A stretch of DNA of 22,278 nt from the IMG/VR virus record IMGVR_UViG_3300025120_014686, positions 1-22,278 of that record. One strand, 5' to 3'. The position numbers and the translations under genes were made by a program. The stretch is from a virus. The notes under the pieces were generated by a model. It was not told where the DNA came from. It ran no database searches and saw only the letters and a program-made list of their open reading frames with translations. The stretch's first letter is position 1, and every line of letters starts with the position of its first letter. This document shows positions 1,361-18,131 of this stretch, piece by piece.

Positions 1361-1389
1361 TTGACATTACCACATTTCCATAGTATAAT
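1361..1389 (+). promoter_or_regulatory. Perfect-consensus sigma70 promoter
   Basis: TTGACA (1361-1366), a 17-base spacer, and TATAAT (1384-1389) match the bacterial housekeeping consensus at every position with the optimal spacing. The ATG at 1395 begins 5 bases after the -10 box, so the transcript would start at or next to that ATG. An in-frame ATG at 1407 would give an 11-12 base leader instead. Confidence 0.85.
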
Positions 1390-1394
1390 TGTGC

Positions 1395-1934
1395 ATGATC
1401 CACGCGATGATAGATCTGGAGACTTTAAGCACAAATCCCAATGCCACAATACTGACCGTTGGTGGTGTTAAATTTGATCCATACACAACAGTAGAACCCG
1501 CACAAGGAATGTATTTCCGTGTGGACGTGGACTCTCAGACAGAAATAGGTAGAGACGTTATGCAGGACACACTGGACTGGTGGGGCAAACAAGATCCTGA
1601 GATAATGGACGAGGCTCTAGGCGACAAGGATCGTATCTCCTTGGAGGCAATGATTAAGACAGTCAACAAATGGTCGGTTGGAGTTGACGTATTCTGGTGC
1701 CAAGGCCCATTGTTTGATTATGCTATACTTCAAAATTTTTATTCGCAACTGGGACATCCTGTGCCATGGCAATACTGGCAGATAAGGGATTCAAGAACAC
1801 TGTTCAGTCTTGTGCCACGTGACCCAACAGAGACAAGGACTGGACTACACAACGCACTCGAAGACTGCTATTTCCAAGCAAGGAAGGTGCAGAAAGTATA
1901 TGCACAGTTAGGCATCAAGAATGCTAGATATTAA
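1395..1934 (+). CDS. DEDDh 3'-5' exonuclease, DexA/RecE C-terminal type
   Basis: This 179-residue protein carries the full DEDDh set. MIDLETLS has Asp7 and Glu9, GPLFDYAIL has Asp108, and LHNALEDCYFQA has His152 and Asp157. DWW (about 61), the RDSRT motif (about 131) and the FDP segment after the first strand match the pattern of phage T4 DexA and the C-terminal exonuclease of E. coli RecE (ExoVIII), from memory. It would remove nucleotides from 3' ends of DNA or RNA; DexA acts on single-stranded DNA. Members of this group are about 180-230 residues, so it is full length. A TTG at 1389 opens the frame earlier but lies in the -10 box; ATG 1395 or 1407 is the likely start. It has its own strong promoter, which suggests early expression. 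The end overlaps the next gene by 14 bases. Confidence 0.9.
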   Translation: MIHAMIDLETLSTNPNATILTVGGVKFDPYTTVEPAQGMYFRVDVDSQTEIGRDVMQDTLDWWGKQDPEIMDEALGDKDRISLEAMIKTVNKWSVGVDVFWCQGPLFDYAILQNFYSQLGHPVPWQYWQIRDSRTLFSLVPRDPTETRTGLHNALEDCYFQARKVQKVYAQLGIKNARY

Positions 1935-2187
1935 ACTAATCTACAAACAATTGGCAACAACTGTTTTGTTCTATCTGAGATTTGATCTACAACTGCATTT
2001 CTTCTGGGCTTTGTTCCTTACATTGTTTGCAGTGTTTTGGCAACCATTGATATACCTGGGATTGGTAGCGACAGTGATCAAGGAAGCATTGGATCTATGG
2101 ATCAAAGGACACTGGAGTTGGGATGACGTTGTGTTCGGTGTCGCTGGTTGTATTGTGGGTGCATACTTCGTGGGAGTAATGTCATGA
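1921..2187 (+). CDS. Small membrane protein, weakly DUF2279/YfiM-like
   Basis: This 88-residue protein has about three hydrophobic segments (residues 25-42, 45-56 and 70-87). The arrangement LHFFWALFLT, then a Gly/Ala-rich segment followed by KEALDLWIKGHWSWDDVVFG and a final Gly-rich helix recalls the DUF2279/YfiM layout. In that family an H..G/A segment precedes KE..D and W.D before a Gly-rich helix. This is a pattern match only. The function is unknown; a role at the inner membrane in lysis or superinfection exclusion is possible. It overlaps the exonuclease end by 14 bases and shares ATGA with the next gene, so it is co-transcribed from the promoter at 1361. Confidence 0.72.
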   Translation: MLDIKLIYKQLATTVLFYLRFDLQLHFFWALFLTLFAVFWQPLIYLGLVATVIKEALDLWIKGHWSWDDVVFGVAGCIVGAYFVGVMS

Positions 2188-2534
2188 AGTGGTACAACAT
2201 AGAAGATCTATACACTGTAGAAAAATACAAAATTAAACACAGCAAAACACCCAAAACCAAATGGATAAGATTAAATTGCGTATATAAAATAAAAATCAAT
2301 AACAAGATTGTGCATGTTGGAAGATCAGATACCTGTAAAAAACATGGAGGTGCGGAGAAAGTCAGGAAGGCCCTGGTAAATCTGCTTGGCCTCTGGGAAT
2401 ACAATCCGTCGGTTACAAAAACAAAAAGTTGGGAAAAAATAAGATTGCAACACAGACCAAATTCTAGTAATATAAAGATAGGAATTATAGAAACAAATGC
2501 AATCAAAAAAATCTATCTACAAGAAAGAATATGA
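2184..2534 (+). CDS. Hypothetical protein with possible degenerate GIY-YIG-like fold
   Basis: The start is ATG 2184, which overlaps the preceding TGA (ATGA); the earlier in-frame start at 2148 would run deep into the upstream gene. This basic 116-residue protein contains CVYKIKINNKIVHVGRSDT (residues 32-50). That resembles the first two strands of a GIY-YIG nuclease (VYKI...NGK.YVG.S), with HVG in place of YIG, followed by a Lys/Arg-rich helix. EINA-type IIETN near residue 105 could be the late Glu. The match is weak and the active site looks incomplete, so this may be a nuclease relic, a DNA-binding derivative or a coincidence. It is AT- and Lys-rich compared with its neighbours. Confidence 0.6.
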   Translation: MKWYNIEDLYTVEKYKIKHSKTPKTKWIRLNCVYKIKINNKIVHVGRSDTCKKHGGAEKVRKALVNLLGLWEYNPSVTKTKSWEKIRLQHRPNSSNIKIGIIETNAIKKIYLQERI

Positions 2535-2898
2535 ACCTGTTGACAATGTAGAAGAAAGCATATGGATGGGAAACGACACACCCATTGAAGAAACAGATTA
2601 CACTTACGTTTTTAATGACAAGTATCCATGCGTCAAAGGACACAAACTTTTTATTCCAAAACAAAATAATCCTGAGTACGTAGGTAAATCTTATGGATTG
2701 GCCTATCAGTATGGCAAGGACAAAATCAAAGCAGGAGAGATGGCCGGTTTCAACGTTGGCATGAACTTAGGGGAGTGTGCAGGTCAGACAGTGATGTGGC
2801 CACACATACATTTTATTCCTCGACACGAAAATGACGCTGATAAGATAGGCGGAATGAGACATGCTCATCCTGGCGCTGATCATAAGAAGTATTACTAA
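2497..2898 (+). CDS. HIT-family hydrolase/transferase-like protein
   Basis: This 133-residue protein carries the HIT fold signatures. KGHKLFIPKQ (residues 48-57) matches the conserved GH.L.IPK strand. GQTVMWPHIHFIPRHEND (97-113) matches the histidine-triad strand. In the usual HxHxHxx motif the first His is here Trp101, while the middle (catalytic) His103 and the third His105 are kept. HIT enzymes hydrolyse or transfer nucleotide phosphates such as AMP-lysine or dinucleoside polyphosphates; the substrate here is unknown. The ATG at 2497 lies 38 bases inside the previous gene, and no other in-frame ATG precedes the conserved part closely. A start at the Met24 codon is less likely. The end overlaps the next gene as TAATG. 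Confidence 0.82.
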   Translation: MQSKKSIYKKEYEPVDNVEESIWMGNDTPIEETDYTYVFNDKYPCVKGHKLFIPKQNNPEYVGKSYGLAYQYGKDKIKAGEMAGFNVGMNLGECAGQTVMWPHIHFIPRHENDADKIGGMRHAHPGADHKKYY

Positions 2899-3152
2899 TG
2901 TCTAGAAAGAAAAAAAAACATCGACCAATCTATGTTTCACCCGACGGTGGCGAAACCGTTTATGAACAATTATCAAACGGTGACAGGATCTTGGTGGAGC
3001 AATCACAGAGAGCAAAGGACGAGGAGACCGCCTATGAAGAAGCAGAAATGATGGGAGCAGAAGCGATAGAACTGCGAAGAAAATATCCAACGCTACAAAA
3101 AGCCTGGGACAAATATCGCACCGTATGGCATTTAATCACAGGAAATCAATGA
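2898..3152 (+). CDS. Small charged hypothetical phage protein
   Basis: This 84-residue protein begins on the last base of the HIT gene stop. The N-terminus is strongly basic (SRKKKKHRP), the middle is acidic and helical (about residues 37-62), and the C-terminus has YPTLQKAWDKYRTVWHLI, an amphipathic helix rich in aromatics. No family is recognised with confidence; small proteins of this shape are common in T4-like marine phages (recollection). A nucleic-acid or virion role is possible from the charge pattern alone. It is the last gene of the unit that starts at 1395, followed by an 82-base gap. Confidence 0.72.
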   Translation: MSRKKKKHRPIYVSPDGGETVYEQLSNGDRILVEQSQRAKDEETAYEEAEMMGAEAIELRRKYPTLQKAWDKYRTVWHLITGNQ

Positions 3153-3221
3153 TCTGTGCACCTTTATTCCGTTCCACTTTTACCAGCAGTATGCAGACGT
3201 CTGTGTGCGTTTAAAGGGGTG

Positions 3222-3229
3222 ATTAAATA
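3222..3229 (+). promoter_or_regulatory. TAAATA box abutting the start codon at 3235
   Basis: ATTAAATA ends 5 bases before the ATG at 3235, the spacing that would put a T4-late-type start on the ATG itself. An AAAGGGG stretch at 3213-3219 could serve as a distant Shine-Dalgarno if a longer transcript is made. The rest of the 3153-3234 gap shows no other signal. Confidence 0.4.
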
Positions 3230-3234
3230 AGATT

Positions 3235-3876
3235 ATGACCAAGTATGTTAGTGTAATAGGCAACGGTGAGAGCAGGAGAGGGTTTGACATAACTCCTTTA
3301 AAAAGTGTTACAACCATGGTGGGTTGTAATGCACTGTTTAGGGATCATAATTTAGAATATGTGGTTTGTGCTGACAAGCATATGTGCCAAGAGGCCGCTA
3401 ACACAGTTGGTAAAAATACCACGATCTACACCAGAGAAAATTGGTACAAACAGTTTGCATATTGGCCCAATGTAAGGTGTGTGCCCAATCTACCATATGA
3501 AGGAGATAAGAGGCAGGACGACCAGTTCCACTGGGGTACCGGACAGTTCGCCGCACTGGTCGGAATGAGTTTCAAACCAAAAGCAATTTTCCTAGTCGGA
3601 ATGGACCTCTGGGGTCTTGGCAAAGAGAACAAGCCAGACAATGTAAACAACATCTACAAGGGCAGTAAAGGATACACGTACATCAAGAGACCTGTGGATC
3701 CAAGTTACTGGATATACCAATTCAACAAACTATTTGAACATTCAGAGTGCAGATGGATCATCGTCAATGAAGAAAATTGGAAAATGCCCGAGGAATGGAA
3801 AGCAAACAAAAATGTTTTCCAAGACACTTACCAGGGACTGGCCAAGTGGATAAACGTTCAGTTGACAAAAAAATAA
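3235..3876 (+). CDS. GT42 sialyltransferase/MptE (DUF115)-like Rossmann protein, copy 1
   Basis: This 213-residue protein opens with SVIGNGESRRGFD (residues 6-18), then MVGCNALFRDH (28-38) and, later, HWGTGQFAALVGMSF (99-113) before IFLVGMDLWG (118-127). The same order occurs in GT42 sialyltransferases such as Cst-II and in the related DUF115/MptE-like group: GNGPS, a CN..F. motif, TSG...A...A and L.G.D. This is from memory of those families. A nucleotide-dependent transferase acting on surface glycan, or a pyrophosphokinase-like activity, is therefore plausible, but the catalytic residues of GT42 cannot be assigned by eye. A paralog lies at 9370-10113. The gene stands alone between two promoter-containing gaps. 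Confidence 0.8.
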   Translation: MTKYVSVIGNGESRRGFDITPLKSVTTMVGCNALFRDHNLEYVVCADKHMCQEAANTVGKNTTIYTRENWYKQFAYWPNVRCVPNLPYEGDKRQDDQFHWGTGQFAALVGMSFKPKAIFLVGMDLWGLGKENKPDNVNNIYKGSKGYTYIKRPVDPSYWIYQFNKLFEHSECRWIIVNEENWKMPEEWKANKNVFQDTYQGLAKWINVQLTKK

Positions 3877-3889
3877 TCTCATATAAAAT
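3862..3889 (+). promoter_or_regulatory. Sigma70-type promoter inside the end of the upstream gene
   Basis: TTGACA (3862-3867), a 16-base spacer, and TAAAAT (3884-3889) lie across the end of the GT42-like gene. The ATG of the glycosylase gene begins 6 bases after the -10 box, with no Shine-Dalgarno. This predicts a leaderless transcript. Confidence 0.6.
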
Positions 3890-3895
3890 TATTGT

Positions 3896-4306
3896 ATGAT
3901 TAAACCAATGGTGGACCACCTAATGGTGCAACAGCAAATAAAGTCTCCTCACAAAAAATGGAAACACATGGTGGGGGTAATGTGTCTTAATCTGACATAC
4001 CGTAAGCACGTAAAGATAATTTTACCAAAATTGTTTGCCCGGTACCCTAGCCCACAAGCATACCTACGTGGCAAATTGCACACACAACAACAAATGTTGA
4101 AACCGTTGGGCATGTGGGAAGTCCGATCAAAGAGAATTAGAAAGATGACAGAACAATACCTCACTTGGAACAAAAAAGAAGCAAGTGATCTACATGGCAT
4201 AGGCAAGTATGGATCCGACAGTTATCAGATATTTTTTAACAATCAAATTCCGCCTAACGTACAAGACAAGGAATTGAAGAAATACATTGACAAACTAATA
4301 GGATAG
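3896..4306 (+). CDS. MBD4-like HhH-GPD DNA glycosylase
   Basis: This 136-residue protein matches the glycosylase domain of MBD4 through most of its length. MLKPLGMWEVRSKRI (67-81) corresponds to the LLKPLG..DLR.K.I segment. LHGIGKYGSDSYQIF (99-113) is the helix-hairpin-helix followed by the catalytic Asp, here Asp108. The C-terminal KELKKYIDKL matches the HKLNKYHDWL end. These comparisons are from memory. MBD4 enzymes excise thymine or uracil from G:T and G:U mismatches. There is no Cys cluster for a 4Fe-4S centre, as in MBD4 and unlike endonuclease III. The protein is close to the minimal catalytic domain in length. Either it repairs deaminated cytosine or 5-methylcytosine in phage DNA, or it attacks host DNA. 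It is driven by its own promoter. Confidence 0.88.
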   Translation: MIKPMVDHLMVQQQIKSPHKKWKHMVGVMCLNLTYRKHVKIILPKLFARYPSPQAYLRGKLHTQQQMLKPLGMWEVRSKRIRKMTEQYLTWNKKEASDLHGIGKYGSDSYQIFFNNQIPPNVQDKELKKYIDKLIG

Positions 4307-4314
4307 TTTATAAT
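4287..4314 (+). promoter_or_regulatory. Consensus sigma70 promoter, 16-base spacer
   Basis: TTGACA (4287-4292) and TATAAT (4309-4314) both match consensus, with a 16-base spacer; the -35 box lies in the last codons of the glycosylase gene. The ATG at 4321 begins 6 bases after the -10 box. An AAGGA at 4315-4319 is too close to the ATG to be an ideal Shine-Dalgarno. Confidence 0.75.
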
Positions 4315-4320
4315 AAGGAT

Positions 4321-4626
4321 ATGTTAGATAAAATAAAAGATGGAGATCTAGTTACTCTTAAATTGACTTCAGGAGAAGAAGTCATTGGAAAATTCACTGG
4401 CAAAGCAGACTCATACATCAGTATAGAGAAAGCACTTGTGCTGATGCAAGGTCCACAAGGATTAGCATTTGGTACATTTTTCTCCACTGCCAAACAAGAC
4501 GAGGCCTTTAACCTATTCACAGATAAGTTGATCACAATAGCACACGTCAATGACAAGATAGCAGACGAGTACAATCGAGTGTTCAGCCCGATAAAGACTC
4601 CTAAAAAACCTAGCATAATCACATAA
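4321..4626 (+). CDS. LSm/Sm-like small beta-barrel protein
   Basis: This 101-residue protein begins IKDGDLVTLKLTSGEEVIG (residues 5-23), the classic Sm1-type opening in which a strand with a hydrophobic D.V.L.L..G.E..G pattern forms the first turns of the barrel. A second strand set follows (SYISIEKALVLMQ), then LITIAHVNDKIADEYNRVF. Sm-like proteins form rings that bind RNA (Hfq, LSm). Similar short phage proteins exist in marine T4-like phages (recollection), and their role is not established. No clear Sm2 motif is visible, so RNA binding is an inference. It has its own consensus promoter, and its stop overlaps the start of the next gene (TAATG). Confidence 0.7.
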   Translation: MLDKIKDGDLVTLKLTSGEEVIGKFTGKADSYISIEKALVLMQGPQGLAFGTFFSTAKQDEAFNLFTDKLITIAHVNDKIADEYNRVFSPIKTPKKPSIIT

Positions 4627-10417: not shown

Positions 10418-11752
10418 ATGGCAAGATTAAACATAGACACAGGAACACTAGGAAATCCGGCGACAGGCGATACTTTACGTACCGCTATGACCAAGGTCAA
10501 CACCAATTTCACAGAATTGTACGACTCAGATCTGTTGGCACTTGTTGGTGGACTAATAAAGACACAGACAACCAATGGTGACATCAAACTCCAACCCAAC
10601 GGCACAGGATCCGTTGAGGTTGATCGGATCAAGTTTTCAGGTGATGATATTACTTCACTAGTTACAAATGGCTCAATAAACATCACAGGTAATGGAACAG
10701 GTAGTGTTGGGGTCGAAGGTATGAATTTCACAGGCAATGTGATAAGTTCTGATTCAAACGCCGACATAATATTGACACCAGGCGGCACGGGTGATGTTGT
10801 TGCTGGTGCTATAAGAATTCATGGGACATCTTTAAGTGCAGACGACAGTTCCACTATTAATATTAACGAAGGATTAATTGTAGACGGAGATCTTACAGTG
10901 ACAGGCTCATTTGATCTTGAAGGATTAGCCGTAGGCACACTAGACGTCGATAACTTAAATTTCAATGACAACACCATAAGTTCAGATTCAAACGCAGATA
11001 TAAACATAGCACCAGGTGGCACAGGAAACCTAGTGCTTGACACAGATTTGGTCAGCGTTGGTGGTGGTTCCGAGGTTGGACACATATCATCCAATGGTGC
11101 ATTCAATTTATTGCTATCTACAAACGGTGATACAGATTCAGGATCCATAGAGATCGTTGATGGTGCAAATGGCGACATCACAATAGAGAATAATGGCACA
11201 GGTGACATACTGTTGAAAGCAGGTGGTCAAGTAGGCATAGGTGCACTAAGCTCACCTGACACTTCATTACACATCAAAAGTGCGGCGGCGAAAGTAACAC
11301 TACAAAGGACTTCTGACGCAAACACACCTGGCATAAGTTTCCAAAATTCAGGCGGAAACGTGAGAGCGGAACTGATGATGGATGGCTCTTCAGGTACTTC
11401 GAATACAGTATTTGTGAACACACATGACGGCTCTTCATTGGCAGAAAGATTCAGAGTAACACACACTGGGGCCAAGGTCACAGGAACATTAGACATTGAC
11501 AGTGGTATCAGCATCACAGACAACACCATAACAACGTCGGCATCAAATGCTGACCTAGAGTTGGACGCATCAGGTACCGGAAATGTTGCATTGGCAAGAC
11601 CAATAATAATGGCTTCATTCACAACCACACAGAGAGATGCACTCACTGCCGCAAATGGGATGATCATCTACAACACCACTACCAATCAGTTTGAGGGGTA
11701 CGAGAACGGTGCATGGGTGAGCCTAAAAGCAGACACGGCTGACGCAGGATAG
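10418..11752 (+). CDS. Fibre-like structural protein 1 (444 aa)
   Basis: The N-terminal domain (about residues 1-40, with GDTLRTAMTKVNTNFTELY) is shared with the next three genes and probably attaches to the virion or trimerises. The body is made of degenerate beta repeats such as SSDSNADIILTPGGTGDVV and SSDSNADINIAPGGTGNLV, each about 20 residues with N and GTG turns. The rest includes a segment with RFRVTHTGAKVTGTL and a C-terminal domain TTTQRDALTAANGMIIYNTT...GYENGAWVSL, a module common at the tips of phage fibres (recollection). Repetitive beta fibres usually bind host receptors or form whiskers. It is the first of four head-to-tail paralogs, ending 3 bases before the next. Confidence 0.85.
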   Translation: MARLNIDTGTLGNPATGDTLRTAMTKVNTNFTELYDSDLLALVGGLIKTQTTNGDIKLQPNGTGSVEVDRIKFSGDDITSLVTNGSINITGNGTGSVGVEGMNFTGNVISSDSNADIILTPGGTGDVVAGAIRIHGTSLSADDSSTININEGLIVDGDLTVTGSFDLEGLAVGTLDVDNLNFNDNTISSDSNADINIAPGGTGNLVLDTDLVSVGGGSEVGHISSNGAFNLLLSTNGDTDSGSIEIVDGANGDITIENNGTGDILLKAGGQVGIGALSSPDTSLHIKSAAAKVTLQRTSDANTPGISFQNSGGNVRAELMMDGSSGTSNTVFVNTHDGSSLAERFRVTHTGAKVTGTLDIDSGISITDNTITTSASNADLELDASGTGNVALARPIIMASFTTTQRDALTAANGMIIYNTTTNQFEGYENGAWVSLKADTADAG

Positions 11753-11755
11753 AAC

Positions 11756-14551
11756 ATGGCCCAGGAAATTATCAACATCGGAGTACAGCCTGATGATGGT
11801 ACAGGCGATACTATCAGGGGTGCCGGTGTCAAATTAAACGCAAACTTCACCGAACTTTTTGCCGAGCCGGCTGTTCTCTCTGACATAGACGTAATACAAA
11901 ATAACATAAGCACAACTGCCAGCGACGCAGACATAGTAATCAAACCTTCAGGAACAGGGGCCGTGGTTTTCCCAGCGATTACCATCGATGACAACAACAT
12001 TAAAACAACAAGGACCAATGATAATTTAGTAATCACGCCTAGTGGTTCGGGTCAATTGGTCATAGACGGAATAGGCTTCTCAGGAACTTCAATAGTGGCC
12101 ACAGACTCCAGCACTGTGAACATAAACGAGAACTTGATCGTGGATGGAACAATTAACACTGGAGCCGCTACTTTAGATTCTGCAGTGACCATCAACTCGA
12201 CGCTGGGAGTAACTGGCGTGAGCACACTCTCAACCCTTACTGTCACTGATGCATCATCATTCGTTGGAACAGTGACCATAGATAATTTAAGTTTCAATGA
12301 CAACATCATAGCCACTGCCTCCAATGCAGATCTAAATCTTACACCAGGTGGCACAGGTTCTGTGGTGTTACCCGGTATCACAATCGATGATAACAATATT
12401 ACAGGCACAAGGTCAAATGAGGATCTGAACATAACTGCAAGTGGTTCGGCCGACGTATTATTGGGACCAATCAGAATAAATGGAACAACTTTAGACAGTT
12501 CAGACTCAACCACAATGAACATCAATGATGCAGTCATAGTTGACGGGACAATAACTGCAGACACACCAACGTTCAATGGTGCGGTTGTTGCCAATTCAAC
12601 CCTAGATGTAACAAGTGGTACAACACTATCAACCCTGACTGTGTCGGGTGCGTCATCTTTCGTTGGAACAACAACAATAGACAATTTAAGTTTCAATGAC
12701 AACATCATTTCTACCAGTTCGAACGCAGATTTGAACCTTACACCAGGTGGGACAGGTGTTGTAAATGTCAGTAACCTTACTATAGATTCAAGCGTAAATC
12801 TGACCGATAACATCATCAAGGTGACTAGGTCCAATGATGACTTCATTCTTACAGCCAACGGCACAGGTTCTGTGCAGATGTCAAAAGTTTCGATGAGCTC
12901 GGGCACTGTTGACGACGTGCCTATAGGCGGTACAACGCCAGCGGCAGGAACATTTGATACAATAGCATTCACAAGTGCAACAATCTCGGCGGACGGAGTT
13001 ACCATAACGGACAACACTATCAAAGCCAACAGGTCCAATGATAATTTGGCGTTTGCCGCCAATGGTTCAGGACACGTACAAATCAATGGTTTCCAACTTC
13101 CATCCGCGGATGGCACCACAGGACAAGTGTTTAAAACAAACGGATCAAAGGTGTTAAGTTTTCTAAGTTCGCCTGTGTTACTCGGAATCTCTGACATACA
13201 AGATGCCTCAACAACCATATCATTCCAAACAACCACAGAGATTGATCACGTGACTGCAGTGGGCGTCCATGACAGGATAGAGTCGGCCACGGTGGTACAA
13301 GACAGTTGGGCAACATCCAAGTATGACGGTGCATGGTACCTTGCAGTGAACAGAGACGACGCAAGTGATGAATTTGAAATCACAAAGCACTCCGTGGTTC
13401 ATAACAATTCAGGTGCTTTCCTTTCAACATCTATCAATGCAAAAACAGGCACCAATAATCACATAAACACAACCGTAGACGTGGACAGTGGAAATGTAAG
13501 ATTATTGGGCACTGGAAGTTCACCTGAGAACTCCCTGTCTTTTTATAGGATAGGCTTGGGAGATGATGATTCCACAGGATACTCTGGTGAGGACGAGGCG
13601 GCAGTCGTAATCAACACAGACGTTGACAGTGCAAGTGAAGTTATAGACTCATGGGCACACGCATCATTCAGAGGTGCAAAGTATTACATTTCAGTCAACA
13701 ACGCATCAAAAACAGAATGCAGTAATCTAGAGTGTTCCGTAGTTCACAACGGTACAACAGCCACAGTTTCAGTATATAATGTTGTAAACACAGGAGACAA
13801 TGACTTGATCGGTTTGACGGCGGCCCTTAATGGATCAAATCTTGAACTTAAGGCCACAGGATTAGAACCTAACCTTAGGGTACACGCATACAGGGTAAGA
13901 TTGGCTGATGACGAAGCGGACAGGAGTTCAACAAACATCAACGTGATAGGAGAGGTAACAGTATCGAGTTCAACAACAACACTGGATACCTTCAGCACAG
14001 GCACATACCAAGCCGCACACTACATTATAGTTGCCCATAATTCAGGAGAAGGCCATTCGTCCATCACTGAAGCCGCGGTAGTGAGTGATGGCACAACCGC
14101 ATTCATCTCACAGTATGGACTTAACAGTACAAAAGGCTCAGATCAAATTTTATTGACCGCTGGACACTCTGGAACTACAACAACACTTTCAGCAACTTCG
14201 ACTTCGGGCGGATCAACTACGGTAAACGCATACAGGGTTAACCTCACAAGAGGCGAAGGTACGTCTACCGCGGTAGCAACACTTGATTCTGTCTCAGCAT
14301 CGGTATACAGGGTAGCCAAATACAATGTGCAGGTAGTAGATGCCGCTGGATCAAAATTTGAACTTTTTGAAGCAAACGTGGTGCACGACGGGTCAACAGC
14401 ATATGTAAGTACATTCGCACATGCAGGTAGTCACACTGACTTGATCACAGTATCCGCAGACATTGACAGTGGAAATTTAAGGTTGAGAGGCACAATAAAT
14501 AACACTAACGACCACGTGGTTAAAGTGGTTAGAAGGGTAATTGAAGTATAA
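11756..14551 (+). CDS. Fibre-like structural protein 2 (931 aa) with four C-terminal repeats
   Basis: The N-terminal adaptor (residues 1-40, DGTGDTIRGAGVKLNANFTELF) is shared with the neighbouring fibre genes. Residues 45-440 are beta repeats with SN.DLN.TP.GTG.V and D.NI turns, including a 133-residue internal duplication (from residues 148 and 281). Residues 445-500 hold a junction (GFQLPSADGTTGQVFKTNG) also found in protein 3. Residues 515-931 are four tandem modules of about 90 residues (starting near 515, 629, 742 and 843), each with a W/S.YR.AKY.V strand, a VVH.G.TA strand and an R.Y/VRV end. Protein 3 has one such module. These are likely receptor-binding or shaft domains. It is the largest gene in the window and appears coupled to its neighbours (3- and 2-base gaps). 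Confidence 0.86.
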   Translation: MAQEIINIGVQPDDGTGDTIRGAGVKLNANFTELFAEPAVLSDIDVIQNNISTTASDADIVIKPSGTGAVVFPAITIDDNNIKTTRTNDNLVITPSGSGQLVIDGIGFSGTSIVATDSSTVNINENLIVDGTINTGAATLDSAVTINSTLGVTGVSTLSTLTVTDASSFVGTVTIDNLSFNDNIIATASNADLNLTPGGTGSVVLPGITIDDNNITGTRSNEDLNITASGSADVLLGPIRINGTTLDSSDSTTMNINDAVIVDGTITADTPTFNGAVVANSTLDVTSGTTLSTLTVSGASSFVGTTTIDNLSFNDNIISTSSNADLNLTPGGTGVVNVSNLTIDSSVNLTDNIIKVTRSNDDFILTANGTGSVQMSKVSMSSGTVDDVPIGGTTPAAGTFDTIAFTSATISADGVTITDNTIKANRSNDNLAFAANGSGHVQINGFQLPSADGTTGQVFKTNGSKVLSFLSSPVLLGISDIQDASTTISFQTTTEIDHVTAVGVHDRIESATVVQDSWATSKYDGAWYLAVNRDDASDEFEITKHSVVHNNSGAFLSTSINAKTGTNNHINTTVDVDSGNVRLLGTGSSPENSLSFYRIGLGDDDSTGYSGEDEAAVVINTDVDSASEVIDSWAHASFRGAKYYISVNNASKTECSNLECSVVHNGTTATVSVYNVVNTGDNDLIGLTAALNGSNLELKATGLEPNLRVHAYRVRLADDEADRSSTNINVIGEVTVSSSTTTLDTFSTGTYQAAHYIIVAHNSGEGHSSITEAAVVSDGTTAFISQYGLNSTKGSDQILLTAGHSGTTTTLSATSTSGGSTTVNAYRVNLTRGEGTSTAVATLDSVSASVYRVAKYNVQVVDAAGSKFELFEANVVHDGSTAYVSTFAHAGSHTDLITVSADIDSGNLRLRGTINNTNDHVVKVVRRVIEV
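12197..12773 (+). repeat. 399-base internal duplication in fibre gene 2
   Basis: Copies begin at 12197 and 12596, an offset of 399 bases (133 codons). Both encode STL.VT..TLSTLTV..ASSFVG and then TIDNLSFNDNII and SNADLNLTPGGTG. The DNA stays nearly identical over the TTTAAGTTTCAATGACAACA stretch (around 12287 and 12686). Confidence 0.8.
13298..14548 (+). repeat. Four tandem about 90-codon C-terminal modules in fibre gene 2
   Basis: The modules start near residues 515, 629, 742 and 843. Shared pattern: a short S..TS.Y..AKY..V strand, an EANVVHDGSTAYVS-type strand, a DL/I...AD.DSGN.RL segment and a closing YRV.L. The copies are diverged at DNA level, so the duplication is old. The first copy is the most divergent; the last is closest to the single copy in fibre gene 3. 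Confidence 0.78.
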
Positions 14552-14553
14552 AC

Positions 14554-16320
14554 ATGGCACAGCAATCGTTAAACCTAGGAACAAACGCAAATGACGGAAC
14601 AGGTGACACTCTTCGTGTCGCAATGGACAAAGTCAATGATAACTTCACAGAGCTTTATAACTCACCGTTGTTCTCAGGGCATCTGACTTTTGCTGGAAAT
14701 GAGATCAGTGCAACAAGGTCAAACGACGACATAGTTTTCGTACCATCGGGAACAGGATCTGTATCGTTTCCTTCAATAAAGATCAACGACAACAACATAG
14801 AGGGTCTAAGGACAAACGAGAACATTAATTTGGTGCCCAACGGTACAGGTTCAGTTGTGTTTGGAGCGATAAAGATCCAAGGCACATCCTTTAGTTCGGA
14901 CGATTCTACTATAATCAATATCAACGATGGTCTAATAGTTGACGGTACTATAAATGTTTCTGGCACAGCGACAATCACAGGGGCGGCCAGCCTAGGATCG
15001 ACACTAGCGGTATCATCAGCACTGACCACACTTTCAACACTTAATGTAACCGGTGCAACCAGTTTGGTTGGCACAACCACTATCGATAATTTAACCTTGA
15101 ATGACAACATAATAGGTTCAAGTTCAAACGCTGACATAATCTTAACACCCGGCGGAACAGGTTCTGTAGTCTTACCAGCGGTCACTATCAATGATAACAA
15201 CATCACAGGCACAAGATCTAACGATGATCTTAACATAAATGCGAGTGGTACTGGTGTAATTAAAATTGGTGCACTGAAATTTGATGGTACAAGTATCAGT
15301 TCAGACGATTCTACAACAGTCAACGTCAACGATAACCTAATAATAGATGGCACCTTGACTACCACAGGGGCGGCCACTTTCACAGGAGCAACCAACCTGG
15401 GATCTACATTGGCTGTGCCATCGGCACTAACAACACTTTCGACTTTGAATGTTACTAGCACTACAGGTTTAGTAGGTACAACAACTATTGATAATTTAAC
15501 ATTCAACGATAACACAATAGGTTCGAGTTCAAATGCTGATATAAACCTAACGCCTGGAGGCACAGGCTCGGTGATCTTATCTAGTTTGACCATTGACTCG
15601 AACATCAACATCACAGACAACGAAATTAAAACAACACAGTCCAACTCGGATCTTGTTATAGCACCAGCAGGCACAGGTCAGGTGGTGTTAAGCAAAGCAG
15701 ATATCAACGGTGGTACCATAGACGGCACAGTTATTGGCGGAACAACGCCTGCCGCAGGATCATTTACAACGCTATCAACCACAGCGTCATTGACCATAGA
15801 CGGCATCACAATAGCAGACAACACTGTCAGCACAAATGAATCAAATTCAATTCTCGAACTATCAGGTAATGGAACTGGTGGTGTTACGATTAGTGGATTT
15901 ACTTTTCCAACATCTGATGGTAGTGACGGACAATTCCTAAAGACAGATGGTTTGGGTAATCTTGCCTTTGCCACTGCATCAGCAACACTAAGTCATTCAG
16001 ATATAGGAGACGGTACCACAACGGTTGCCACCTCTACGACAAGCACCCTTAACCAGTTTGATAAAACAGCACATAGGAGTGCCAAGTATTTTATATCAGT
16101 GTCAGATGCAACAAACAGCAGGTTCGAGATAGTAGAAGCAAATGTTATTACCGACGGTACCAATGCTTTTGTAACAACATTTGGTTCGGTAAGTGATCAC
16201 GCCACAGGGTTGGCAGTTTACTCTGCAGATGTTGACGGTGATAATGTAAGGTTAAGAGTCACTAACATTTCCGATAACAGCACAGTCTTTAAATTCCAGC
16301 GTATTGCTATAGACGTGTAA
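14554..16320 (+). CDS. Fibre-like structural protein 3 (588 aa)
   Basis: It has the same adaptor (DGTGDTLRVAMDKVNDNFTELY, residues 14-35) and the same repeat body as protein 2, including a 135-residue duplication (see repeat 14971-15590). A VIGGTTPAAG segment (about residue 390) and GFTFPTSDGSDGQFLKTDG (about 450) align with protein 2. The C-terminus (about residues 494-588) is one copy of the RSAKYFISVSDATNSRFEIVE module ending FQRIAIDV. It looks like protein 2 shortened by three C-terminal modules, or protein 2 is this one expanded. It starts 2 bases after gene 2, and a 65-base gap follows it. It is probably a homotrimer fibre or part of a hetero-fibre with its paralogs. Confidence 0.86.
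   Translation: MAQQSLNLGTNANDGTGDTLRVAMDKVNDNFTELYNSPLFSGHLTFAGNEISATRSNDDIVFVPSGTGSVSFPSIKINDNNIEGLRTNENINLVPNGTGSVVFGAIKIQGTSFSSDDSTIININDGLIVDGTINVSGTATITGAASLGSTLAVSSALTTLSTLNVTGATSLVGTTTIDNLTLNDNIIGSSSNADIILTPGGTGSVVLPAVTINDNNITGTRSNDDLNINASGTGVIKIGALKFDGTSISSDDSTTVNVNDNLIIDGTLTTTGAATFTGATNLGSTLAVPSALTTLSTLNVTSTTGLVGTTTIDNLTFNDNTIGSSSNADINLTPGGTGSVILSSLTIDSNINITDNEIKTTQSNSDLVIAPAGTGQVVLSKADINGGTIDGTVIGGTTPAAGSFTTLSTTASLTIDGITIADNTVSTNESNSILELSGNGTGGVTISGFTFPTSDGSDGQFLKTDGLGNLAFATASATLSHSDIGDGTTTVATSTTSTLNQFDKTAHRSAKYFISVSDATNSRFEIVEANVITDGTNAFVTTFGSVSDHATGLAVYSADVDGDNVRLRVTNISDNSTVFKFQRIAIDV
14971..15590 (+). repeat. 405-base internal duplication in fibre gene 3
   Basis: Copies begin at 14971 and 15376, an offset of 405 bases (135 codons). 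Both encode TGA..LGSTLAV.SALTTL, then STLNVT, LVGTTTIDNLT and SSSNADI.LTPGGTGSV. The second copy is cut short near 15590, where a different junction segment starts. Confidence 0.82.
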
Positions 16321-16348
16321 TAATTACATTAGGTTTACAAAACAAAAC

Positions 16349-16356
16349 AATAAATA
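16349..16356 (+). promoter_or_regulatory. Late-promoter-like AATAAATA before fibre gene 4
   Basis: AATAAATAC sits in the 65-base gap (16321-16385), 29 bases before the ATG. A transcript from about 16362 would carry the TAAGGAG Shine-Dalgarno at 16368-16374 with 11-base spacing, a textbook leader. Confidence 0.65.
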
Positions 16357-16385
16357 CTTCACAACAATAAGGAGTAATACACAAC

Positions 16386-18131
16386 ATGGCACGACAAGCA
16401 ATAAACATAGGATCTAGCGCCAACGACGGCACAGGTGATCCATTACGAACAGCATTTGATAAAGTTAATGATAACTTTGTAGAATTATACGGTACAGATA
16501 ACGATATTAACACACTAGACGCAAACTTAGATGTAAGAACATTCGAGATTACAACTGGCGTTACTAACGGCGACATCACTGTTACTCCAAATGGCACAGG
16601 TGCCATAAAACTTGGTGCTATGAAATTCGTTGGTACAACATTGAGTTCAGATGACTCAACACAGATAACAATCGCTGAAAACATTGAGTCTACAGGAACA
16701 CTTACAGTTGCTGGTGCATTGGAGAGTGGAACATCTTTAAAATTAGCCACAGGTGCTACTGTAACAGGTATTTTAGACGAAGATGCGATGGGCACTGACT
16801 CTGCTACACAGTTAGCAACACAACAATCTATCAAGGCATACGTGGACAGCACAGTTACAGCACAGGATTTAGATTTTGCATGTGATGATTCTACAACACT
16901 TAACATTGATTTAGATTCTGAGGCACTACAATTCTCAGGCGGTGATGGTATAACAACCGCAGGAACACTAAACACCGTAACCATAGCGATCGATTCATCA
17001 GTGGTTACATTATCGGGTACACAGGCATTAACAAATAAAGATATTATTTCACCTACTATATCCTCACCAACAATTACAGGAGCAACTACAACAGGTTCAT
17101 TGACAACTAATGAAATCACCTCGAATGGTTCAAACGCAAACATCACTGTTAATCCACAAGGTTCAGGAACGGTAGAGCTTGGCGCCACAACTAACATCAC
17201 AGGTGCCGCAACAGTTTCAACAACACTAGATGTTACTGGAGCAACAACACTAGCAGGTGGTGCCACTGTGGCTGGTTTATTGACAGCAGGCTCAGTAACT
17301 ACCAACGAGATAACAAGTAATGGATCAAATGCAGATATCACTATAGATCCCACAGGAACTGGTGCTATCGCATTGACTGGTCCTATTACAGCAACAGGAG
17401 TACAAACTACAACAGGACAATTAAACGTAGATAACCTTAGACTTGACGGCAACACTTTATCAGCAACGTCAGGCGCTATAACATTGACACCAGCAGACGG
17501 ACAAAGTTTAACTGTAAGTGGTACAGGTGTTAAACTAGTAGCCGCTGAAACGCAGTTTACTTTAATGGAAGCCACAACTGTAAGAACTGATTTTATATCA
17601 AGTGACACATCCAATGCTGACATTGACATCACAACACAAGGTACTGGTGTCGTAAAAATTGAAGACACACAACTTACACTGACTGGATCATTCCTGCCAG
17701 CAATACACACATTCGTGGCAACGGACGCTATAACAATAGCGGAACACGCCGGAAGAACTTTGTTGCTTGGTGAAGTTGGTGGTAACGCATTGGTAACACT
17801 GACACTGCCAGATGCAACAGGTAGCGGTGCAACATACAAATTTATAGTTTCTGTTGCAAACACATCAAACTATGTGATAAAGGTACCGGATGCAGACAAC
17901 ACAATAGATGGTATAATGATGTACCTAGATGAAGATGGAACAGCGGTATCGGCCTTCCCAACAGTGGCGACTTCAGATACTATCACAATTAACGGTGGTA
18001 CTACAGGCGGCATTATTGGTGACTATCTTGAAATAGTTGACATAGCGGCTGACCAATATCACGTAAGAGGTGTGATGAGGGTGGCGTCAGGTGCCAACCC
18101 AGCGACACCATTTAGTGCTACAGTAAGTTAA
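16386..18131 (+). CDS. Fibre-like structural protein 4 (581 aa)
   Basis: It has the adaptor domain (NDGTGDPLRTAFDKVNDNFVELY, residues 14-36) and a repeat body. Residues 138-160 read TQLATQQSIKAYVDSTVTAQ, and a VVTLSGTQALTNKDIISP-type segment (about 205-222) is common in phage fibres (recollection). TTNEITSNGSNA..I occurs twice, 65 residues apart (17103 and 17298). The C-terminal part from about residue 435 (FLPAIHTFVATDAITIAEHAG, GEVGGNALVTLTLPDATGSG) is a separate domain not shared with fibres 1-3 and would be the tip or exposed head. It is the only fibre gene with its own AATAAATA box plus a normal Shine-Dalgarno, suggesting it is the most strongly expressed of the four. Confidence 0.86.
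   Translation: MARQAINIGSSANDGTGDPLRTAFDKVNDNFVELYGTDNDINTLDANLDVRTFEITTGVTNGDITVTPNGTGAIKLGAMKFVGTTLSSDDSTQITIAENIESTGTLTVAGALESGTSLKLATGATVTGILDEDAMGTDSATQLATQQSIKAYVDSTVTAQDLDFACDDSTTLNIDLDSEALQFSGGDGITTAGTLNTVTIAIDSSVVTLSGTQALTNKDIISPTISSPTITGATTTGSLTTNEITSNGSNANITVNPQGSGTVELGATTNITGAATVSTTLDVTGATTLAGGATVAGLLTAGSVTTNEITSNGSNADITIDPTGTGAIALTGPITATGVQTTTGQLNVDNLRLDGNTLSATSGAITLTPADGQSLTVSGTGVKLVAAETQFTLMEATTVRTDFISSDTSNADIDITTQGTGVVKIEDTQLTLTGSFLPAIHTFVATDAITIAEHAGRTLLLGEVGGNALVTLTLPDATGSGATYKFIVSVANTSNYVIKVPDADNTIDGIMMYLDEDGTAVSAFPTVATSDTITINGGTTGGIIGDYLEIVDIAADQYHVRGVMRVASGANPATPFSATVS
17103..17355 (+). repeat. 195-base internal duplication in fibre gene 4
   Basis: Copies begin at 17103 and 17298, offset 195 bases (65 codons), encoding TTNEITSNGSNANITVNPQG and TTNEITSNGSNADITIDPTG. 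Only about 20 codons are clearly repeated. The unit is shorter than those in fibre genes 2 and 3. Confidence 0.7.

Follow-up and report, generated by a model that had tools for sequence, protein, structure and literature searches.

Does a virus begin the messengers of some of its non-structural genes on the ATG itself, leaving the ribosome no leader to bind? The question is raised by a virus record that consists of a 22,278 bp fragment (hereafter the window, meaning this whole stretch of DNA), where three genes are each preceded by a sigma70 promoter lying immediately before the start codon (Table 1). We found no named phage close to the window at the DNA level, and its source is an uncultured marine virus, one that infects bacteria judging from its relatives. 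The window holds the end of an adenylate/guanylate-cyclase gene, the exonuclease gene, QueD and structural proteins similar to T4 gp9/10. The similarity of gene 3896 to endonuclease III comes from a PF00730 match (E 9e-4) that is below the curated cut-off, and from distant homologues annotated with that name. Further along, at 10418-18131, four structural proteins encoded in succession share the motif ..NDGTGDxLRxAxxKVNxNFTELY, or a near variant of it, at the N terminus; the first of them has a weak match to T4 gp9/10, and the strand opposite all four genes has long open frames.

Table 1. Promoters and predicted leaderless genes of the window (distances are from the end of the -10 box to the ATG).
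Feature	Position	Strand	Description
sigma70 promoter TTGACA-N17-TATAAT	1361..1389	+	12/12 match; 5 nt before ATG 1395
predicted leaderless gene, 3'-5' exonuclease	1395..1934	+	PF16473 Rv2179c-like, 1.2e-33; phrog_255
sigma70 promoter TTGACA-N16-TAAAAT	3862..3889	+	11/12 match; 6 nt before ATG 3896
predicted leaderless gene, 136-aa protein	3896..4306	+	weak HhH-GPD / endonuclease-III-like similarity
sigma70 promoter TTGACA-N16-TATAAT	4287..4314	+	12/12 match; 6 nt before ATG 4321
predicted leaderless gene, 101-aa protein of unknown function	4321..4626	+	phrog_527

A preliminary description of this DNA had placed three sigma70 promoters just ahead of these ATGs, and all three are there, with exactly the coordinates, spacers and distances it gave. 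They have the conserved -35 TTGACA and -10 TATAAT of the sigma70 type, at a spacing within 15-19 nt, and are the best three matches in the first 12 kb. The second overlaps the 3' end of the preceding ORF (3235-3876), and the -35 of the third lies within the coding end of gene 3896. Only two other sites in the window match at 11/12 or better (~6170 and ~22040); both are inside genes and neither has an ATG 4-9 nt after its -10. Windows simulated with a first-order Markov model contained an average of 1.0 site matching at 11/12 or better when both strands were counted, and 0.02 strong sites with an ATG at distance 5-6 were expected, against three in the real window. That the first two genes have no Shine-Dalgarno, as had been claimed, was borne out, and the same can be said of the third: the AAGGAT before ATG 4321 ends 1 nt from the ATG and is replaced in homologues by AGTAAT, AGTATT, AAGATT or TTAGGT, so it is neither a usable nor a conserved Shine-Dalgarno, and none of the three genes has one.

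The arrangement is deeply conserved. For each of the three genes, up to 80 homologous loci were retrieved, and about 60-100 distinct upstream regions per gene keep the -35, the -10 and a gap of 4-9 nt, mostly 5-6. For the exonuclease the distance is 5 or 6 in all 66 distinct promoter-bearing regions, for gene 3896 it is 6 in 58 of 60, and for gene 4321 it spans 4-9, with a mode of 6, among 102 distinct regions. Information content in these upstream regions peaks over the -35 and the -10, and the promoter stays with its gene while the neighbouring upstream genes differ widely between homologues. Five loci with unlike upstream DNA (L009, L018, L029, L053, L081) still have the promoter 6 nt from the ATG, and two others (L140/L141), which carry an extra start-proximal codon (ATG ACT ATT CAC), retain the 6-nt gap. 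In contig G010 the exonuclease is a second gene without a promoter, and it is the 295-aa protein there whose ATG follows TTGACATTACCA...GTAGTATAAT after 6 nt. We also observed the same or nearly the same promoter sequence before unlike first genes at four exonuclease loci (L112, L129, L159 and L166), encoding exonuclease, 295-aa, 63-aa and 255-aa proteins, each with its ATG 6 nt past the -10; by sequence, it is as if genes had been swapped behind a fixed promoter.

The preliminary description had proposed looking for -10 boxes enriched beside start codons in relatives, and the outcome is strongly positive. In 18 related records, 38 of the 53 perfect promoters have an ATG 5-8 nt after the -10, and the reversed pattern, used as a control, gave seven sites, one of them with an ATG at that distance. 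Fifteen assembled records, together 717 kb with 975 genes, gave 43 site/distance matches among 947 genes for sites scoring 11/12 or better with an ATG 4-9 nt away, the three seed families (homologues of 1395, 3896 and 4321) being left out, versus 4 among 4531 in-gene ATGs, which makes the arrangement about 50 times commoner at gene starts; some of these records are near-duplicates, so the events are not all independent. Across the genomes the distance is again 4-9, with a mode of 6. The arrangement occurs in 17 gene families of the 15 records, 12 of them with more than one member, and these include the clamp loader, a GroES-like protein, DnaJ, a UvdE-like nuclease, a QueE-like radical-SAM protein and an NDP-sugar dehydrogenase (names given by homology and sequence, several by eye and without a family search); the sliding clamp has a weaker match, 10/12. 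On the other hand, of the 158 sites that score 11/12 or better in the contigs, 73 are without an ATG 4-9 nt downstream, and on inspection many of these lie in genes or on the minority strand. A conserved TTGACA-N16-TATAAT was also seen within what looks like coding sequence, away from any start codon (G003 46425, G004 35652, G005 33717, G006 34228, G010 27879, with homologues in G001, G002 and G007), which is possibly a conserved codon run and not a promoter. In the DnaJ homologues of G001, G002 and G007 (L243, L254 and L270; contigs of 32% G+C) the promoter is kept at a gap of about 12 nt with no Shine-Dalgarno, and a 5-nt leader is possible there.

Translation signals differ sharply between genes with and without the arrangement. 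A Shine-Dalgarno of at least 4 nt precedes 1.6% of the 62 arrangement genes versus 48% of the 913 others (shuffles, 13.6%). The base at -1 is a pyrimidine in 53 of the 62 (85%), versus 389 of the 913 (43%), and it is never G in the arrangement genes; this pyrimidine excess is expected if the A of the ATG is +1. Starts located 4-9 nt behind strong promoters are 82 ATG, no GTG and three TTG, the last of which look incidental. Leaderless messengers are recognised in sequence by a start that is AUG rather than GUG or UUG, with no Shine-Dalgarno before it, and this is what these genes have. The same association holds within single families, where a Shine-Dalgarno is found in none of 64 exonuclease homologues with the promoter versus 9 of 20 without it, and in none of five clamp loader homologues with the promoter versus 41 of 57 without it, although Fisher tests on these counts ignore phylogeny and the sequences are related. 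Since leadered promoters with AGGAG are found in the same contigs (G003 38095, G004 27291), leadered and leaderless modes would coexist and can be told apart.

Could A/T-rich DNA imitate such promoters by chance? Single -10-like hexamers are indeed common, and matches as weak as 9/12 are no more numerous in the window than in shuffles (41 vs 33 +/- 6), but the excess of strong sites at distance 5-6 and their deep conservation leave this idea almost no room; it is already refuted because the promoters are conserved. A more serious view is that ordinary leadered promoters lie close to the ATG by accident, with the true start further upstream or transcription running through from an operon, and with the -10-like DNA serving as an A/T-rich standby site for translation. 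The same-strand gene arrays would permit read-through and A/T-rich DNA commonly precedes start codons, but the -35 TTGACA is as well conserved as the -10 and spacing is held at 15-18 nt, promoters scoring 11/12 or better are concentrated 4-9 nt from the ATG and rare otherwise, and in the exonuclease and clamp loader families no promoter-bearing homologue has a Shine-Dalgarno. We consider this explanation improbable.

We regard as equally improbable that the promoters are genuine and the ATGs as annotated go unused, so that the transcript starts near the ATG and a later start codon, with its own ribosome-binding site, is where translation begins. The exonuclease does have a second ATG 15 nt downstream (1410), but this ATG has no Shine-Dalgarno before it, and the codons that precede it (Ile-His-Ala) are conserved among homologues with silent variation. 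The first ATG is also kept in promoterless homologues, several of which have a Shine-Dalgarno, and it is to the first ATG that the promoter holds a constant distance.

The reading we favour, with a probability of about 0.86, is that these are genuine promoters for host sigma70, with +1 on the A of the ATG or within 1-2 nt of it, giving leaderless mRNA for non-structural genes. With the -10 at -12 to -7, a 6-nt gap puts +1 on the A of the ATG, and a 5-nt gap brings this A one base earlier, which is still a common start distance for sigma70. With a gap of 5, 7 or 8 nt the leader may be 0-2 nt long, and gaps of 4, 7 and 8-9 nt, mainly in homologues of gene 4321, could leave one of 1-2 nt. Host RNA polymerase with sigma70 would start on the ATG and produce a 5'-triphosphate mRNA beginning with AUG, and ribosomes, as 70S or as 30S with initiator tRNA, would bind this terminal AUG directly, with no need of a Shine-Dalgarno. 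Such expression would in this clade be the default for first genes behind a strong sigma70 promoter, mostly non-structural ones, and genes inside operons, with a minority of promoters, would use a leader and a Shine-Dalgarno. The earlier proposal that the mRNA begins at or near the ATG thus gains support from sequence, namely from the promoters, their conservation and fixed distance, the missing Shine-Dalgarno (often present in promoterless homologues), the ATG starts and the -1 pyrimidine; transcription start, leaderless translation, early timing and host are inferred. As a helper of leaderless initiation we considered a phage-encoded ribosomal protein S21, and rejected it: PA5oct and HTVC008M do carry S21, but no PF01165 was found in 18 clade records, which are fragments.

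A search with the clamp loader of a related contig placed PA5oct-like jumbo phages first (54% identity), followed by Phosso, a Sinorhizobium phage, and Atu_ph07, an Agrobacterium phage, and these jumbo phages are the nearest named relatives by this protein (44-54% identity). All three share the gene order around their homologous clamp loader, with a GroES-like gene a short way upstream and PhoH after it, and PA5oct and Atu_ph07 also have DnaJ. However, in 41 kb regions of PA5oct and Atu_ph07 the strong promoters are mostly 19-36 nt or more before the ORF start, several with a Shine-Dalgarno, the 41-kb region of Phosso has no strong promoter, and in none of these regions is the clamp loader leaderless. 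The T4-like pelagiphage HTVC008M is, like the present virus, marine, with an alphaproteobacterial host and sigma70-like promoters, but these read TTGACT-N17-TATAAT, mostly with TGTGA before the -10, and usually lie 10-32 nt before the ATG, some with AAGGA; one is at 6 nt. In a sister group (clamp loader ~71-72% identical; contigs of 150-237 kb), 10 of 37 perfect promoters have an ATG at 5-8 nt.

To see the arrangement in wider context, distance profiles were made on fetched contigs of a separate environmental viral sample, picked by an unrelated promoter pattern. There, 28 of about 110 strong promoter-ORF pairs (~1/4) have leaderless geometry; 25 of the 28 are without a Shine-Dalgarno, and 43 of the 60 pairs that are 18-40 nt apart have one. 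The present clade is therefore an extreme case of a broader pattern. Regarding the host, genome matches were confined to two co-binned phage contigs in one alphaproteobacterial MAG, MED657, which is weak evidence for a host assignment; one contig of this MAG, C13, is nearly all phage of the present clade. A clpP-like gene of MED657 itself has a perfect promoter 6 nt from its ATG. At the end of the otherwise phage contig C13 (L610, ~57.4-58.5 kb) we noted a gene for cytochrome b (PF00033, 225 bits) whose ATG lies 5 nt behind a perfect promoter, and a second copy on contig C18; it is a respiratory gene carried by the phage or else the result of a join in the assembly. The preliminary description had called systematic leaderless expression of non-structural genes unusual: the systematic part stands, by sequence, in 17 families and the phage group appears to use it routinely, but the rarity holds only in part, since the geometry recurs in a quarter of the sampled viral pairs and alphaproteobacterial cases are known (PMC3616915).

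Gene finders and expression models for phage commonly assume a leader and a Shine-Dalgarno. A clade without a Shine-Dalgarno at its sigma70-driven non-structural genes would alter the annotation of start sites in environmental phages, and would supply natural pairs of leadered and leaderless homologues for the study of leaderless initiation in Gram-negative hosts. Translation at the start of infection could in this way be freed from Shine-Dalgarno pairing, or promoter-ATG cassettes could ease gene exchange. We give about even odds to the widest version of this idea, in which leaderless sigma70 expression is standard for the first genes of early transcription units in the clade and mainstream (~1/4 of strong sigma70 promoters) in environmental phages, and the promoter-plus-ATG cassette of ~35 bp is a unit for gene swapping with no ribosome-binding site to rebuild.

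The closest classical cases are the lambda cI gene, transcribed from pRM, and leaderless mRNAs that have been investigated in E. coli (cited in PMC3160421, PMC4631060). Like the genes described here, lambda cI is a phage gene with a sigma70 promoter, a start codon at the 5' end or close to it, a requirement for AUG and no Shine-Dalgarno, but it is a lone repressor gene of a temperate phage, whereas the arrangement here extends over 17 families, replication and chaperone genes included, across a clade. The sequence criterion and geometry, a TATAAT-like box some 12 bp upstream of the start codon, are identical to those published for bacterial leaderless genes (Zheng et al. 2011, PMC3160421). That work concerns cellular genomes, mainly Actinobacteria and Deinococcus-Thermus, and rates Proteobacteria as Shine-Dalgarno-dominated; the portion of it drawn on here describes no phage clade (PMC3160421). 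In Sinorhizobium meliloti, 171 leaderless transcripts have their start sites on the AUG, and all of them use AUG (PMC3616915). They would share with the present genes an alphaproteobacterial setting, a +1 on the AUG and the exclusive use of AUG, but are a minor class in that host, and in this phage clade the arrangement would be the main class of strong promoter. Taken with the published -10 criterion (PMC3160421), these transcripts mean that the machinery is ordinary. Leaderless genes are thus already known, and what is new is their predicted systematic use for the non-structural genes of a phage.
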